Below the pieces are notes generated by a model. That model did not search any database. It worked only from the letters and a program-made list of their open reading frames with translations, and had not been told where the DNA came from. A stretch of 64,000 bases of DNA from Leuconostoc inhae (GTDB lineage: Bacteria > Bacillota > Bacilli > Lactobacillales > Lactobacillaceae), in NCBI RefSeq assembly GCF_019656015.1, contig NZ_BPKW01000003.1, forward strand, positions 1-64,000, written 5' to 3'. This document shows positions 6,388 through 14,087 of this stretch, piece by piece. Both the position numbers and the translations under genes were made by a program. Numbering within the stretch: position 1 is the stretch's first letter; every line of letters begins with the position of its first letter.

Positions 6388-7797
6388 ATGGTTGTCGGTG
6401 CACAAGCACGTGAAATTGATACTGTAGTGATTGGTTCTGGACCTGGTGGTTATGTGGCTGCAATTCGTGCAGCTGAGTTAGGCCAAAAAGTTACTATTAT
6501 TGAACGCGATACGATTGGCGGTGTTTGTTTGAATGTCGGGTGTATACCTTCAAAGGCTTTAATTAATGTAGGACATCATTATCGTAAATCAATGTCGCCA
6601 ACACCTTTTGGTTTAACGACGACTGGAACGGCACTTGATTGGCATCAAGTTCAAGATTGGAAACAAAATAAGGTTGTTCATACGTTGACTAGTGGTGTTG
6701 ATATGTTACTCAAAAAGCATCATGTAGAAGTTATTAAAGGTGAAGCAAGATTTAACGATAATGCGACACTCAATGTGTTACAAGAAGATGGACATGAATT
6801 ACTACAGTTTAATAATGCGATTATAGCAACTGGCTCTCGCCCAGTAGAATTAGCTAACATGCCTTTTGGCGGTCGTATTATTGATTCAACGGGGGCTTTG
6901 AATTTAACTGCTATACCAAAAAAATTGATCATTGTAGGTGGTGGCGTGATTGGTTCCGAGTTAGGCGGGGCCTATGCTAATTTAGGGACACAAGTGACAA
7001 TTATTGAAGGTTTAGATCACACATTAAACGGCTTTGATCACGAAATGACGAAGCCAGTATTAGACGACTTCACAAGTCGTGGTGGTGTGATTGTGACATC
7101 TGCAGTTGCTAAATCAGCAGAACAAACAGTAGATGATGTGACATTGACTTATGAGGTTGACGGTAAAGAACAAACAGTTACTGGTGAATATTTGCTAGTG
7201 GCAGTTGGACGTCGTGTGAACACGGATGATGTCGGACTGAATAACACGGATATTAAGTTGTCAGATCGTGGTGTGATTGAAATAGCTGATAATATGCAAA
7301 CAAGCGTTGCACATATTTATGCGATTGGAGATATTACTGCTGGCCCACAGCTTGCGCATAAAGCGAGCTTTCAAGCAAAAATTGCGGCTGGTGCAATTGC
7401 AGAAGACCCACAAGCCCATGATTTACATTATTCATTACCAGCTGTGGCGTACACTAATTTTGAATTAGCAACAACTGGTGAAACACCAGATTCAGTAAAA
7501 GACAAAAAACTGAATGTTAAAATTTCAAAATTTCCGTTTGCCGGTAACGGACGTGCTATTTCCATGGATGAAACAGTTGGCTTTATTCGACTCATTAGTG
7601 ATAAGGAGACACATGCGCTACTGGGTGGTCAAATTGTTGGACCAAGTGCATCAGATTTGATTTCTGAATTGTCACTTGCAATTGAAAATGGGTTAACTAC
7701 GAATGATATAGCATTAACAATTCATCCACATCCAACATTGGGAGAAGCAATTATGGACACTGCGGAATTGGCTGATGGTTTACCAATTCATATTTAA
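6388..7797 (+). CDS. pdhD: Dihydrolipoamide dehydrogenase (PDH E3)
   Basis: FAD disulfide oxidoreductase that reoxidises dihydrolipoamide with NAD+. The FAD site GSGPGG (about residues 16-21), redox pair CLNVGC (Cys47 and Cys52), NAD site GGGVIGSE (about 187) and the C-terminal HPHPTLGEA with the catalytic histidine are all present; 469 residues. It starts two bases after pdhC and is the last gene of the operon, followed by a hairpin terminator. Confidence 0.95.
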   Translation: MVVGAQAREIDTVVIGSGPGGYVAAIRAAELGQKVTIIERDTIGGVCLNVGCIPSKALINVGHHYRKSMSPTPFGLTTTGTALDWHQVQDWKQNKVVHTLTSGVDMLLKKHHVEVIKGEARFNDNATLNVLQEDGHELLQFNNAIIATGSRPVELANMPFGGRIIDSTGALNLTAIPKKLIIVGGGVIGSELGGAYANLGTQVTIIEGLDHTLNGFDHEMTKPVLDDFTSRGGVIVTSAVAKSAEQTVDDVTLTYEVDGKEQTVTGEYLLVAVGRRVNTDDVGLNNTDIKLSDRGVIEIADNMQTSVAHIYAIGDITAGPQLAHKASFQAKIAAGAIAEDPQAHDLHYSLPAVAYTNFELATTGETPDSVKDKKLNVKISKFPFAGNGRAISMDETVGFIRLISDKETHALLGGQIVGPSASDLISELSLAIENGLTTNDIALTIHPHPTLGEAIMDTAELADGLPIHI

Positions 7798-7827
7798 ATC
7801 ACAATGCTCTTTTAAATAATCATGATA

Positions 7828-7862
7828 AAATAAAGTTGTCACAATTGTGGCAACTTTATTTA
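7828..7862 (+). terminator. Terminator of the pdh operon
   Basis: AAATAAAGTTGTC pairs with GGCAACTTTATTT (one mismatch or wobble) around ACAATTGT. The T tract is part of the stem and short, so read-through into the hydrolase gene is possible. Confidence 0.65.
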
Positions 7863-7875
7863 GATAGGAATAAAC

Positions 7876-8658
7876 ATGGCAAAATTTACAACAACTGATG
7901 ATGTTACGATTGACTATAATATATATGGGCTGGGACAGCCGATAATTCTCGTTGCAGGTTATTCTGGTAATCAGGCAACATGGGTAGCACAAATTGACGT
8001 TTTAGTAGCCAATGGGTTACAGGTTATTACCTATGACCGCCGTAATCATGGTAAAAGTGATACGGTTAATTACGGGATGCGTCTGTCACGGCATGGCAAA
8101 GATTTAGCAGAATTGATATCCGTACTTCAGTTAAAAAAGCCAATATTGTTAGGCCATTCCATGGGAGCAAGCACGATTTGGGCTTATTTGTCGTTATTTG
8201 GTGATGAAGGTGTTAGCGCTGTGATTACTGAAGATCAAGTTCCAACGATGTTACAGGATGATACATGGCCCTTTGGACTTTTTGATGCTGACATGGGGAC
8301 ACTTATGCAGGCAATTGAAAAGTTACCACATACAAAATTGACGCGGTTGAAAATTTCAGATGACATCAAACGGGCAATCGGTGAAAATTATCAACCTTTT
8401 GATTTCCAATTTAACATGCCATTATTGTTAAATAGTGCTGTACAAGATTGGCGGGATGTGGTGCGTCGTGAACGTACACCACATCTTTATTTAGCCGGTG
8501 GTGAGTCCCCATTATGGCCTGCTAAGCATGCTGAATTAGCGGCCAAAATGACCAAACATGGGCAGTATGTTATTTTTGATGGTGCAGGACATATACCGCA
8601 TATTGAAGTGCCAGAGATGTTTAATCAAGTTGTGTTAGAATTTATTAATCAGTTGTAA
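7876..8658 (+). CDS. Alpha/beta-fold hydrolase
   Basis: A 260-residue alpha/beta hydrolase with the nucleophile elbow GHSMGAS (Ser95) and a late histidine in AGHIPHIEVPE (about His238). The oxyanion-region glycines near GYSGNQATW are also present. Members of this group include esterases, haloperoxidase-like enzymes and C-C hydrolases; the substrate cannot be read from the sequence. It has its own TAGGAA ribosome site and is separated from pdhD only by a moderate hairpin. It converges on the DUF3042 gene. Confidence 0.82.
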   Translation: MAKFTTTDDVTIDYNIYGLGQPIILVAGYSGNQATWVAQIDVLVANGLQVITYDRRNHGKSDTVNYGMRLSRHGKDLAELISVLQLKKPILLGHSMGASTIWAYLSLFGDEGVSAVITEDQVPTMLQDDTWPFGLFDADMGTLMQAIEKLPHTKLTRLKISDDIKRAIGENYQPFDFQFNMPLLLNSAVQDWRDVVRRERTPHLYLAGGESPLWPAKHAELAAKMTKHGQYVIFDGAGHIPHIEVPEMFNQVVLEFINQL

Positions 8659-9760: not shown

Positions 9761-10634
9761 ACTAGTCGTTATTGCGGGACCGACTGCATCGGGGAAAAGT
9801 GACCTAGCCATTGCCATGGCACAAAAATTTAACGGTGAAATCATTTCAGCTGACGCGATGCAAATTTATCGTGAGTTAGACATTGGCACAGCAAAAGTCA
9901 CCTTGACTGAACGAAAACTAGTACCCCATCATTTGATAGATATTATTGGTATGACCGACCAATTTTCGGTGGCTGATTTTGTTGCTCGTGCTGATGCGGC
10001 GATTGTGGATATTGTGTCACGTGGTAAATTGCCGATTATCGCAGGAGGAACAGGCTTTTATGTCAAAGCATTGCTAGGCGAGCAACCGCTTGATTTTGTC
10101 GCAAGTGACGCACAAGAAGTGATTGACTTAAAACAACGTGACTTGTCTGATCTTATGAGTGAATTACAGAGGCTTGATAGCACGTTAGCAAATAAAGTTG
10201 ATCAACATAATAAACAGCGGATCATTCGAGCAATTGAAATTGCTCGTCATGGGGCGCATGTCAAAAAAACGATGCGCCCTAAATACGATGCGTTAGTTGT
10301 TGGCATTGATTGGTCACGTGATATATTATACGAGCGAATTAATTCACGCGCGCAAACGATGATTGATGCTGGTTTGCTAACAGAGGCAAACCGCATTTTA
10401 AATGCTGGCGGTGAAAATATTCAAGCGGGAAAAGCAATCGGTTATAAAGAATTTTTTCCATATTTATATGGTGACATAACGCTGGATGAAGCTATAACAA
10501 AAATGCAGCAAGACTCTAGGCGGTATGCCAAGCGCCAGTTAACGTATCTGAGACATCAAATTCCAGGATTAATCTGGCTTGATGGCGCGCAATCGCAGGC
10601 AGAATTGGCGACGCGTATTGAATCTTGGGTATAA
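9753..10634 (+). CDS. miaA: tRNA dimethylallyltransferase
   Basis: Transfers a dimethylallyl group to N6 of A37 in tRNAs reading UNN codons. The P-loop GPTASGKS (residues 9-16) and the substrate segment DAMQIYRELDIGTAK are diagnostic, as is the later AIGYKEFFPYL block; 293 residues. The ATG at 9753 is preferred because AAGGGG ends six bases before it; another ATG at 9747 abuts that ribosome site. The start overlaps gdpD, so translation is probably coupled. Confidence 0.93.
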   Translation: MTKLVVIAGPTASGKSDLAIAMAQKFNGEIISADAMQIYRELDIGTAKVTLTERKLVPHHLIDIIGMTDQFSVADFVARADAAIVDIVSRGKLPIIAGGTGFYVKALLGEQPLDFVASDAQEVIDLKQRDLSDLMSELQRLDSTLANKVDQHNKQRIIRAIEIARHGAHVKKTMRPKYDALVVGIDWSRDILYERINSRAQTMIDAGLLTEANRILNAGGENIQAGKAIGYKEFFPYLYGDITLDEAITKMQQDSRRYAKRQLTYLRHQIPGLIWLDGAQSQAELATRIESWV

Positions 10635-10760
10635 AAATGATGGTTTAGGTGGATAATATTAAGGTTTGCTGTACTTTTTAGAAAGACTGAATGTACCAAA
10701 ACTTCAATATAGGAAATAGAATTGTATATGGCATATTCTAAAAATATTAGGGGGATTAAC

Positions 10761-11021
10761 ATGATTGACAACTCTGTTTTTTGTGAACTGACTGAAAGAG
10801 ACCTAGCAAACATTTGTGGTGGCAGCTCTGAAGATATAGCAGTTAACCTTAAAGTACTAAGACTAACTGCTGGATTTAAAAGGGTAGATTTAGCGGACAT
10901 GTTAAATGTTAGTTTATCAACAATTACGAAGTATGAAAAAGGCTCTAGGGTGCCTGACATTGATACAATAATCAAATTAGCTGAAATTCTGAACACAGAT
11001 GTTGATAACTTGATTTTTTGA
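10761..11021 (+). CDS. XRE-family HTH regulator carrying a double-glycine export leader
   Basis: An 86-residue protein. Residues 1-21 end in LTERDLANICGG, which fits the class II bacteriocin leader pattern at every key site: Leu-12, Thr-11, Asp-8, Leu-7, Ile-4, Gly-2, Gly-1. The rest is one complete Cro/CI-type helix-turn-helix (LKVLRLTAGF, VDLADMLNVSLSTITKYEKG, VPDIDTIIKLAEIL). The frame is continuous, and AGGGGGA lies about six bases before the ATG. The next gene is a bacteriocin precursor with LSEQELSQIFGG at the same place, so the similarity is not likely to be chance. The HTH domain suggests control of the bacteriocin promoter; the role of the leader is unknown. Alternatives are a recombination relic between a precursor gene and a regulator gene, or a genuinely exported or exporter-sensed regulator. 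Confidence 0.82.
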   Translation: MIDNSVFCELTERDLANICGGSSEDIAVNLKVLRLTAGFKRVDLADMLNVSLSTITKYEKGSRVPDIDTIIKLAEILNTDVDNLIF

Positions 11022-11026
11022 AAGTG

Positions 11027-11054
11027 AAATTTCGGACATATTGTCCGAAATTTT
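11027..11054. repeat. Perfect inverted repeat after the XRE gene
   Basis: AAATTTCGGACA, TAT, TGTCCGAAATTT: arms of 12 bases with a three-base loop, starting six bases after the XRE stop codon. It can terminate XRE transcription (T tract only TTTTAT) and, lying just upstream of the bacteriocin promoter, could also be a protein-binding site. Confidence 0.7.
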
Positions 11055-11058
11055 ATAA

Positions 11059-11085
11059 GTTATCTTGTATATAATATAAGATAAC
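11059..11085 (+). promoter_or_regulatory. Bacteriocin promoter inside a dyad operator
   Basis: GTTATCTT (11059-11066) and AAGATAAC (11078-11085) form a perfect 8-base dyad with an 11-base centre that contains TATAAT (11070-11075). No recognisable -35 hexamer lies 16-18 bases upstream. The arrangement suggests a regulated promoter with a repressor or activator site over its -10; the XRE protein encoded just upstream is the obvious candidate ligand. Confidence 0.65.
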
Positions 11086-11109
11086 CTATAGAAGGAGTAA
11101 TGGATATTT

Positions 11110-11334
11110 ATGAATAAGTTGTCAGAACAAGAATTATCACAAATTTTTGGAGGAGCTAAGGGTAGTATAGGAGGGTATCTTGCATCTACGTCTATTGGAA
11201 CTGCTACTGGAATGCTAAAAGGTGCTTGGAATGGTCGTTTAGCTGGACCAGAAGGTATGGTTATTGGAGCGGGAATTTGGGGAACTGCTGGATTTTATGG
11301 CTCAACGATTACCTATTTGGGATCACACAATTAA
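11110..11334 (+). CDS. Class II bacteriocin precursor, peptide A
   Basis: A 74-residue precursor with a 15-residue double-glycine leader (LSEQELSQIFGG) and a 59-residue, cysteine-free, glycine-rich mature peptide starting AKGSIGGYL and ending YLGSHN. It contains the GxxxG motif GTATG and the block GPEGMVIGAGIWG, as expected for helix-helix pairing in two-peptide (class IIb, lactacin F-like) bacteriocins that permeabilise target membranes. GAAGGAG lies 12 bases before the ATG. It shares AK..GGYL, a GxxxG and a G-rich C-terminal helix with the next gene, so the two are paralogues. Spectrum and activity cannot be inferred. Confidence 0.85.
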   Translation: MNKLSEQELSQIFGGAKGSIGGYLASTSIGTATGMLKGAWNGRLAGPEGMVIGAGIWGTAGFYGSTITYLGSHN

Positions 11335-11358
11335 TTATTTAACAAGGGAGAAAATGCC

Positions 11359-11589
11359 ATGAACAATGTTAACTTTATCAGTGAACAAAATTTATCTTTG
11401 ATACATGGGGGTGCTAAGCCAAATATGGGAGGATATTTATCGACGGTTGCTGCCGGTACAGCTGGAGGTGCTACTAAGGGGGCTTTGGGATCTTGGTGGA
11501 CAGGAGAAGGAGTTGTTGTAGGAGCAGGCATTGGTGCTGTAGGTGGATTTTATATCAGTACAGCAGGTTATTTTGCAACGCATCATTAA
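11359..11589 (+). CDS. Class II bacteriocin precursor, peptide B
   Basis: A 76-residue precursor with an 18-residue double-glycine leader (ISEQNLSLIHGG) and a 58-residue mature peptide starting AKPNMGGYL and ending FATHH. GxxxG motifs occur in GTAGG and GAGIG; there is no cysteine, and two adjacent tryptophans lie mid-sequence. It begins 24 bases after peptide A with its own AAGGGAG ribosome site and is almost certainly co-transcribed. The pairing of two such genes with a small membrane gene is the standard class IIb layout; which peptide plays the alpha or beta role is unknown. Confidence 0.85.
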   Translation: MNNVNFISEQNLSLIHGGAKPNMGGYLSTVAAGTAGGATKGALGSWWTGEGVVVGAGIGAVGGFYISTAGYFATHH

Positions 11590-11601
11590 TTTAAAATTTA
11601 A

Positions 11602-11643
11602 TATTATTAGATATTTATTGATATCTATTGATATCTAACAATA
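11602..11643 (+). repeat. Hairpin and tandem 10-mer between peptide B and the membrane gene
   Basis: TTAGATAT (11607-11614) pairs with ATATCTAA (11631-11638), and the stem extends by a few more pairs on each side. The loop contains two tandem copies of ATTGATATCT. No T tract follows. It may be a processing or stability hairpin that makes the downstream gene's expression differ from that of the bacteriocin genes. Confidence 0.55.
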
Positions 11644-11661
11644 ATGTATAGGAAAATTAAT

Positions 11662-11862
11662 ATGAAAAAAATATTTCTAAGAGAAACCATAGGCAGTATG
11701 GTGATGGCAATTGTATATTTTATAGGTATTTTTGTATTTTCTTTGCTGTTTAAACAAAAGTTCAACTTTCATGACACGGTAATTGATAGTTTGATTTTTA
11801 CAATTATTATGACCGTGATGTCAATTGTAATCAATAGATATTTTTATTCTGATAGAAAATAA
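11662..11862 (+). CDS. Small membrane protein, probable bacteriocin immunity protein
   Basis: A 66-residue protein with two predicted membrane segments (about residues 8-30, SMVMAIVYFIGIFVFSLLF, and 38-58, DSLIFTIIMTVMSIVI) and positive ends. Its place directly after the two precursor genes, on the same strand and before the terminator, is where class IIb immunity genes normally lie. The ATG at 11662 is preferred over 11644 because TAGGAAAA precedes it. I do not recognise a specific family; the immunity role is inferred from position and topology. Confidence 0.65.
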   Translation: MKKIFLRETIGSMVMAIVYFIGIFVFSLLFKQKFNFHDTVIDSLIFTIIMTVMSIVINRYFYSDRK

Positions 11863-11894
11863 TGATTGCGTATAAAGAACTATATGATCTTAAC

Positions 11895-11945
11895 AAAAAT
11901 AAGGACATTCATGATAATCAAACATGAATGTCCTTATTTTTTATT
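11895..11945. terminator. Bidirectional terminator
   Basis: AAAAATAAGGACATTCATG and its exact complement flank a nine-base loop and are followed by TTTTTTATT. It ends the bacteriocin operon and the oppositely oriented antiporter gene. Confidence 0.9.
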
Positions 11946-11954
11946 GACGAAACA

Positions 11955-14087
11955 TTATACTTTCGATTCTACGTACTCATCTGTAGCCAATTGTTCAGTT
12001 TGATCTAATTGTAACATTTGTGCCTGATTAATTTCTTTGTAAAGCGCACTTGCCATGGGTTGGACAATAGTACCTTCGGAAACACCTTGTTGTACAAAGT
12101 CGTATTCATATTGGAATGCTTGAATATAAAGGGAACTATTAACGGGGACAGATTCGTGCTTATAGTCACGTTTTACGCGATTAAAGAAGCGATTCATTGT
12201 TTCACGAACGAAATAAATGTGGTCATTATCACTTTGCTGGCTGGCAAGGCGGTCACGTAATGTATCATCCAAATAGGTATCTGTAGCATGAGTCAGGTCG
12301 ATATTGAGTGCTATGAGCCCATCACGTGTGTCAGTCCATTTTTTGATGTTGGCAGCAAATGTGGGATCAGTCTTTAATTTATTTTTTCGGAAACGATTGC
12401 GTTGCGCACGTGTAATAACGCCATTTGCAAGGTGCCAAGTTGATTCGCGAGCGTATCGACGTAAAGTGCGTTTAAGTTGGTGCTTGAACGATCTCGTTTG
12501 CTTGGGACCAATATTGCGAGTGTGTTGTAAAATCTTAGCATAGATATTAATTGTGTTGGCGCTGTAAATCTTAGTGACGGAATCATTGCGAATGTACATC
12601 AAAGCAAAATCTTGTGTATCTGCTAGTAAGTCAAGAAATTGAGATGAAGCGCTTTTTCTATCATCCATCATGAACAATTTATTTTTTTGTGATTGAAGTT
12701 GCGTTGACAGGGTTTCACGGATATCATGATCTGATACATGATCAAGAATTTTTAGTGAGGCGTAATCTATCATTTTATCACGTGTTTGGTTGAAATCAAC
12801 TGTTGTATATGATTCGATTTTTGCAGGTAATTGTAATGGCAAAACAATGGCACTAACAAGCATACTGATTAAAATGACTAAGGTTGCCACAATAATGAGT
12901 GTTTCACGGTAGGGAAATGCATGACCTGCAATTTTGTAAGGTAAAGAAAAAGCCATGGCTAACGTTACAGTGCCATGAACACCACTAATAGCGAAAATAC
13001 GGGCATAAAATTTGTGTTGTTTATCATTACGATCGCCAAAAAATAATGCAAAGCTGCTTGGTTTATGATGATTTTGTCTATCATTACTGTCGCGTAAAGC
13101 CCAAAAGTATCGTAAAACCAGCATAATGACATAAATCAAAACACTCAATGCCACGAGTTGTAATGTGCCAGACAAACCAATTTTTGTGATTGATAACCAA
13201 ACGCCAGGTAAAGAAACACCTAAAATTAAGAAAACAACAGCATTTAACACATCTGCAATGGTTTGCCAAATCGTACGCGAGGTTAATTGTACAGTTGTCG
13301 AAGTCAAACGTAAGCGACTTGACTCCCAATTATGCACCATGCCAGTTGCCACGACTGCTAAAATGCCAGACGTTCCTAAGTGTTCAGCGAGTAAATAGAC
13401 AGCGAATGGGGTTAACAAACTAATAGGAATGATGGTTGTTTCTGGGTTTGATGCGCGCTGTTGTAAATTAACACGTAATGCCACAATAAGAAATCCAAGA
13501 ATTGTACCAACAAGAACACCGCCAACTGCCACGAAGAAAAAATGTTCTAAGCCATGAACAACGGAAAAAGTACCTTGTGATAAAACTGATAGCGCCAAAT
13601 CTAACATGACCAGGCCGGTAGCATCATTAAAAAGTGACTCGAGTTCTAATGCCTCGCCAACGCCTTCAGGCATGTCAGTGCCTGCTGTTAATGATTTAAC
13701 AGCGACTGCATCGGTAGGCGTGACAATAGCAGCTAAGGTAATAGCTAAAGGTAGTGTCCAAGTGACTTCAATGTGATTGGTAATGATACCAACCACAAGC
13801 GTCGTCACGACGGCTAAAACGACCGATAATAGCCAAATACCTTCAAAACGTTTTTTTATTTTAGCAAATGATTGTTTTTGACCATCAATAAACATGATTG
13901 GGGCGATAATCATTAACATAAAAAATTCAGGTTCAAGTTCAAAATTTTTAAAAATTGGTGTCAATGACATGGCAACACCAACAGCAATTAAAATAAAAGC
14001 CTCAGGTATTTTAGGAACAAATTCTTTAATAATATTGGTCGCAATGACACCAATCAATAATAAAGCTAAGGTATATAAAGTAGTCAT
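11955..14087 (-). CDS. Na+/H+ antiporter, NhaP/CPA1 type with long cytoplasmic tail
   Basis: Monovalent cation:proton antiporter of the CPA1 family in the cytoplasmic membrane. About the first 410 residues are a multi-span transport domain, including TPTDAVAVKSL and ESLFNDATGLV, which carry the ion-binding aspartates of the family. The remaining 300 residues are hydrophilic and charged, a probable regulatory tail. Total 710 residues, longer than a minimal NhaP. AAGGAG lies just upstream of the ATG. It is monocistronic and convergent with the bacteriocin operon. Na+ versus K+ preference is not decidable. Confidence 0.88.
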   Translation of the reverse strand: MTTLYTLALLLIGVIATNIIKEFVPKIPEAFILIAVGVAMSLTPIFKNFELEPEFFMLMIIAPIMFIDGQKQSFAKIKKRFEGIWLLSVVLAVVTTLVVGIITNHIEVTWTLPLAITLAAIVTPTDAVAVKSLTAGTDMPEGVGEALELESLFNDATGLVMLDLALSVLSQGTFSVVHGLEHFFFVAVGGVLVGTILGFLIVALRVNLQQRASNPETTIIPISLLTPFAVYLLAEHLGTSGILAVVATGMVHNWESSRLRLTSTTVQLTSRTIWQTIADVLNAVVFLILGVSLPGVWLSITKIGLSGTLQLVALSVLIYVIMLVLRYFWALRDSNDRQNHHKPSSFALFFGDRNDKQHKFYARIFAISGVHGTVTLAMAFSLPYKIAGHAFPYRETLIIVATLVILISMLVSAIVLPLQLPAKIESYTTVDFNQTRDKMIDYASLKILDHVSDHDIRETLSTQLQSQKNKLFMMDDRKSASSQFLDLLADTQDFALMYIRNDSVTKIYSANTINIYAKILQHTRNIGPKQTRSFKHQLKRTLRRYARESTWHLANGVITRAQRNRFRKNKLKTDPTFAANIKKWTDTRDGLIALNIDLTHATDTYLDDTLRDRLASQQSDNDHIYFVRETMNRFFNRVKRDYKHESVPVNSSLYIQAFQYEYDFVQQGVSEGTIVQPMASALYKEINQAQMLQLDQTEQLATDEYVESKV

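Follow-up and report, generated by a model that had tools for sequence, protein, structure and literature searches.

The locus at 10761-11021 of the window, the whole 64,000-nucleotide stretch of Leuconostoc inhae DNA that was analysed, raises the question of why a protein with a DNA-binding domain should begin with the double-glycine (GG) leader of a bacteriocin precursor. The sequence-only reading of this locus described a single uninterrupted 86-codon gene with a ribosome site that joins such a leader to a complete HTH_3 domain, and the translation, the ribosome-binding site and the domain and leader scores given below bear this out.

A double-glycine leader fused to an HTH_3 domain

The following features make up the regulator gene:

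10750-10755, plus strand: ribosome-binding site GGGGGA of the regulator gene, from the sequence
10761-11021, plus strand: regulator gene, GG leader fused to an HTH_3 domain, 86 aa, from translation, Pfam and relatives
10761-10823, plus strand: double-glycine leader, residues 1-21, with a predicted C39 cut after ICGG, from a leader matrix and from positions -1, -4, -7 and -12 kept in 24 of 24 members
10848-11006, plus strand: HTH_3 DNA-binding domain, residues 30-82 (Pfam PF01381, E 4.1e-14)

The reading frame is unbroken and encodes MIDNSVFCELTERDLANICGGSSEDIAVNLKVLRLTAGFKRVDLADMLNVSLSTITKYEKGSRVPDIDTIIKLAEILNTDVDNLIF, the first 21 residues of which end in LTERDLANICGG, with GG at -2/-1 where C39 substrates carry GG or GA/AG. 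The HTH_3 domain is complete (52.8 bits against a gathering cut-off of 23), placing the protein among the XRE/HTH_3 regulators, and the core that follows the leader matches no bacteriocin core family (Bacteriocin_IIc or similar) in Pfam. Searches against Pfam and NCBIfam returned the HTH domain and weak leader matches only, with both curated leader models below their cut-offs (TIGR01847, 14.0 bits against 15.7; ComC, 13.1 bits against 20.4), and detected no homology to FlgM, ExsE or LcrQ. An AlphaFold model of the regulator as a single sequence had a pLDDT of 42 and was set aside.

For a more specific score, a 15-column leader matrix was built on 41 leaders of small GG ORFs from the fetched loci, which by oversight include one regulator leader (G412a). 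The window regulator reaches 20.2 bits on this matrix, with the site after residue 21, against a maximum of 9.8 bits among 500 shuffles of its own N-terminus and at most -1.1 bits among 40 control HTH proteins, and a chance leader was rejected on these comparisons. The 99.9th percentile of shuffled N-termini, pooled over all members of the family described below, is 10.3 bits; the weakest member is G010b, for which 6 of 500 shuffles score as well. Judged from its sequence, the window regulator is a small DNA-binding protein with the tag by which bacteriocins are recognised for cleavage and export.

A conserved family in Lactobacillaceae

A whole-protein search of relatives returned full-length matches, leader included, in many genomes, and after the loci were read at least 24 leader-HTH_3 genes were recognised in Lactobacillaceae genomes and plasmids. 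These are spread over five genus groups of this one family as well as plasmids of Leuconostoc mesenteroides and Latilactobacillus curvatus, and a second fused regulator lies in the window's own genome (contig C24:1353-1613). Position -1 is Gly in all 24, -2 is Gly in 21 (Ala in two, Cys in one), -4 is Ile or Val, -7 is Leu, Ile or Met, and -12 is Leu, Ile, Met or Val, so that every member has the hydrophobic -4, -7 and -12 residues of a C39 substrate; in a 20-row alignment the second Gly of the GG pair is one of only four invariant columns. One alignment of the family carries a mistyped C-terminal tail for G412a, an error that does not touch the leader. The notion that no homologue keeps the leader is contradicted by this conservation. 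Leader-HTH fusions are open reading frames in many genomes, and therefore a frameshift joining two genes, one of the artefacts that the sequence-only reading had allowed for, was rejected. In every scorable pair of members, codon comparison gave a dN lower than dS for both leader and core; in most pairs the leader is less constrained and evolves faster than the core. These fused genes adjoin GG peptides, C39-ABC exporters and/or accessory proteins, which is the recurrence of leader-HTH_3 proteins beside bacteriocin genes that the sequence-only reading had proposed to look for.

An order-wide profile search, together with plasmid and phage matches of which three were opened, detected no member outside Lactobacillaceae; such HTH-dominated searches might overlook leaders joined to HTH domains of other subfamilies. 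The nearest leaderless HTH relatives (MREVV...; L086:4989-5243) are found in one genus of the family, with a trxB-like gene on one side and a phosphoglucomutase-like gene on the other. A tree of the HTH domain requires about five leader changes, while one clade is still compatible with the data (AU p = 0.22) at 66 columns, which are too few. In G412, two GG-leader regulators (L083:3422-3682, minus strand, and 7671-7958) flank one C39 exporter. Their HTH domains show little likeness to one another, so the leader may have been acquired repeatedly.

The predicted operator and the bacteriocin genes

Downstream of the regulator lie a predicted operator, a promoter and the bacteriocin genes:

11034-11046, no strand: predicted operator, dyad GGACATATTGTCC centred at -42, unique in the genome and at the same 23-bp distance from the -10 in relatives
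11070-11075, plus strand: -10 hexamer TATAAT of the bacteriocin promoter, with no -35 hexamer and a predicted start at about 11082
11110-11334, plus strand: bacteriocin precursor 1, 74 aa, leader MNKLSEQELSQIFGG, from the leader and Bacteriocin_IIc
11359-11589, plus strand: bacteriocin precursor 2, 76 aa, leader ending LSLIHGG, from the leader and Bacteriocin_IIc
11662-11862, plus strand: 66-aa hydrophobic protein, possible immunity protein, from position and composition only

The two GG-leader precursors directly after the regulator, with leaders of the same design as its own, are as the sequence-only reading had described them. Precursor 2 exceeds the Pfam Bacteriocin_IIc cut-off of 27.1 bits (28.0 bits), and precursor 1 falls below it (19.4 bits). 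The 66-aa protein, which may confer immunity, matches no family above cut-off in Pfam or the curated models. A five-codon ORF in another frame (ATGGATATTTATGAATAA, 11100-11117) overlaps the start of precursor 1 and has the better ribosome-site spacing. No RNA family was found within 10500-12000.

The dyad sits exactly 23 bp ahead of TATAAT, between the regulator and the bacteriocin genes, and GGACANNNTGTCC occurs once in the 1.96-Mb genome. A looser dyad pattern has four sites in this genome, two of which are followed after 23 bp by TATAAT, namely the window site and C24:100-112, which precedes the second bacteriocin locus of the same genome; the remaining two lie inside or at unrelated genes with no -10 after them. 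The same dyad at the same distance from the -10 is found in G015, G001, G025 and G010; the window shares 11 of the 13 dyad positions with G010, and likewise with the second locus of its own genome, against about a quarter to a half of the flanking positions. Ten bacteriocin promoters have this layout, the half-sites varying with the regulator subgroup: TACCAAAGTGGTA occupies the same place in G010b and G008, TAACGAAACGTTA in G006a and TTACAGTTGGTAA in G404, and CAACTAGCGGTTG lies 24 bp before TATAAT at two bacteriocin promoters of G412. Taken singly, seven promoters have a layout that arises in 0 to 22 per 1000 shuffles, the layouts of G008, G261 and G320 are indistinct from shuffles when taken alone, and the layout is absent from G005, G016, G006b and the L. 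curvatus plasmid. The conserved spacing argues strongly that the regulator binds the 13-bp dyad at 11034-11046.

The best match to a -35 hexamer, sought at 16-18 bp, covers 0-3 of 6 positions in each of the ten promoters. A dyad near -42 with no -35 hexamer is the arrangement of a lambda-CI-type class II (-41.5/-42) activator site; lambda CI activates PRM from -42. An activator is favoured because of this likeness, and the regulator probably activates the bacteriocin promoter, a conclusion held with moderate confidence; repressors, too, can act from sites near -42.

The window dyad is part of a longer hairpin (11024-11056), which has a terminator score as well. Interpretation of the hairpin as a pure terminator was rejected, as relatives keep only the 13-bp dyad and its spacing and their flanks would form no long stem. 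The centre of a second inverted repeat (TATAAGTTATCTTGTATATAATATAAGATAACCTATA, 11057-11093) coincides with the -10 of the bacteriocin promoter, and a second regulator may bind there; G010 also has a dyad over its -10.

C39 exporters and stand-alone C39 peptidases

Among genomes of the genus, a C39 domain is present in 11 of 11 that carry the regulator and in two of eight that do not (Fisher p = 0.001, a guide only, as the genomes are related), and counting full-length C39 proteins only, the figures are 10 of 11 and one of eight. All six regulator-carrying genomes of other genera encode a full-length C39 exporter. A C39 exporter lies near the regulator in many relatives. In G010, G320 and G373 and on the L. 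mesenteroides plasmid, the start of the regulator gene falls inside the accessory gene or shortly downstream of it. Several loci (L035:6106-6828, L044:6167-6895, L047:5825-6565, L082:4934-5656 and L041:2284-3072) also encode, upstream of the regulator and mostly in divergent orientation, a 240-aa XRE protein whose C-terminal part is helical; the window lacks it.

The sequence-only reading had assumed that the strain possesses a C39 peptidase, and no intact one is present in the assembly: the sole C39 is a truncated 97-aa fragment on another contig (C14), and an intact exporter may lie on a missed plasmid. The fragment ends before the catalytic His (L004:1839-2132, minus strand), and a G006 copy is similarly truncated (L046:9877-10113). 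Because the assembly holds only this truncated C39 and no accessory protein was found in it, the regulator-bacteriocin module looks orphaned in this isolate.

In three species (G002, G007 and G012), the regulator is closely followed, in the same gene neighbourhood, by a complete C39 domain of 145-146 aa with no transporter (L044:7304-7771; L045:6471-6911, minus strand; L043 beside 6995-7252, minus strand). By motif, the active-site Gln, Cys, His and Asp are all present in these stand-alone peptidases. Codon comparison of G012 with G002 gave a dS of 1.09 and a dN of 0.25 for the peptidase (dN/dS about 0.2) and a dS of 1.72 and a dN of 0.08 for the regulator core, indicating purifying selection on both. 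Neither G007 nor G012 has another C39 gene, G002 has one weak second match only, and no GG peptide was found in the 14-kb loci of the three. Since a soluble stand-alone C39 cannot export anything, cleavage, not transport, is likely the regulated step.

Leader conservation in 24 members, the C39 co-occurrence and the stand-alone C39 in three species lend good support to the proposal of the sequence-only reading that a C39 enzyme acts on the regulator through its leader; among trapping, cleavage and competition, which that reading had set side by side, the stand-alone enzyme favours cleavage. Recognition of the regulator leader by C39 is strongly indicated by these comparisons. The predicted operator and the wider family lay beyond the sequence-only reading.

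A possible link between transcription and export capacity

The reading tentatively favoured here, with somewhat less than even confidence, is that the regulator is an activator of the bacteriocin promoter licensed by C39 processing, its binding, activation and cleavage all being predicted from genome comparison. The HTH domain would bind the 13-bp dyad at -42 of the -35-less bacteriocin promoter and recruit RNA polymerase, and the GG leader would be read by the C39 domain of the exporter, or by the stand-alone C39 in some species, as leader conservation and gene association suggest. Removal of the leader would change the activity of the regulator, most likely from inactive to active; that cleavage switches the regulator on is a weak conclusion, chosen because it would match output to export capacity and explain the stand-alone C39. 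The bacteriocin genes would then be expressed only while free C39 capacity exists, and once the precursors fill the peptidase the regulator would stay unprocessed and production would fall. With no intact exporter in the assembly, the module of the window's isolate would be in the unlicensed state. This absence weighs against the favoured reading, as do the members without the dyad layout and the faster evolution of the leader in most pairs. The broader proposal, that one class of transcription factors consists of C39 substrates and that cytoplasmic leader removal by the peptidase domain of the exporter or by a dedicated stand-alone C39 switches a DNA-binding activator, tying bacteriocin transcription to export capacity, is about evenly balanced in our judgement. 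Taken as a whole, the pattern suggests that bacteriocin production is coupled in the cell to the apparatus for bacteriocin processing and export.

The same licensing could operate with the opposite sign, the HTH protein blocking the bacteriocin promoter until cleavage or export by the C39 exporter lifts the block, comparable to the export of FlgM through the flagellar machine. Small Cro-like HTH proteins are often repressors, the dyad would cover the -35 region, and the C39 evidence is the same as for an activator; however, ten promoters without a -35 hexamer should be weak without an activator, and a soluble stand-alone C39 has no means of exporting the protein, even if cutting it could be enough for inactivation. 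A repressor is therefore considered unlikely. Slightly less likely again is sequestration, whereby an idle exporter holds the full-length activator by its leader and frees it when precursors occupy the C39 domain, cleavage being a side effect or a means of disposal. The association of leader and exporter fits this scheme, and MalT-MalK offers a general precedent for an ABC transporter that holds an activator, but in three species the C39 next to the regulator stands alone, without a transporter, production would rise when the exporter is already full, and the genes would be left on in exporter-less strains such as that of the window.

An improbable alternative to a C39-licensed activator is that the leader serves as a regulatory or dimerisation segment for a partner other than C39, for example the divergent 240-aa XRE protein, whose gene adjoins the regulator in several loci; the window lacks such a gene, the regulator co-occurs with C39, and the leader motif of the members is the C39 motif. 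Export of the HTH protein to act outside the cell as a bacteriocin or signal would fit its export leader and a size within the cargo range of C39 exporters, yet the DNA-binding residues and the matching predicted operator are conserved and the core has no bacteriocin features, which makes this role very improbable. That bacteriocin loci often recombine speaks for a recombination relic, which the sequence-only reading had also considered; a fused family of 24 members that all keep the leader motif, with the core under purifying selection, rules out the relic and leaves a chance resemblance practically negligible as well.

Comparison with known systems

The regulator shares its leader motif, neighbourhood and approximate total length with the GG-leader substrates of C39-ABC exporters (class II precursors and ComC/BlpC pheromones), but the part that follows its GG is a DNA-binding domain with a conserved predicted operator, not an antimicrobial or a pheromone. 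With XRE/HTH_3 regulators of the Cro/CI type it shares the complete HTH_3 domain and a dyad placed at -42, as for lambda CI at PRM, whereas ordinary regulators of this kind have no export leader and its nearest leaderless relatives lie beside housekeeping genes. The type III export-coupled regulators FlgM, ExsE and LcrQ resemble it in logic only: each controls the substrates of an export machine that also handles the regulator itself. They differ in the lack of homology, and in the present case the exporter is an ABC protein with C39, the regulator itself would bind DNA and a stand-alone peptidase can replace the exporter. MalT-MalK is similar in that an ABC transporter controls a transcription activator, as is generally known, and differs in being an import system with no cleavage and no leader. 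HetC of Nostoc is another C39 exporter that takes part in a regulatory pathway; its substrate is unknown, and according to its authors no GG-leader gene lies near hetC (PMC10986499).

Literature searches, thin for subscription journals and without preprints, found no description of such a regulator, which in itself is no proof of novelty. Bacteriocin producers should not outpace their own processing and export, and pheromone quorum sensing provides no direct gauge of export capacity; a regulator with an export leader would be one. If the proposed mechanism is correct, C39 peptidases would gain a role in gene regulation, and the regulator with its stand-alone C39 would form a simple two-gene protease switch. 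The leader-HTH regulator could also serve as a marker for unannotated bacteriocin loci; the members seen with an annotation go by no other name than "helix-turn-helix transcriptional regulator" or "hypothetical protein".
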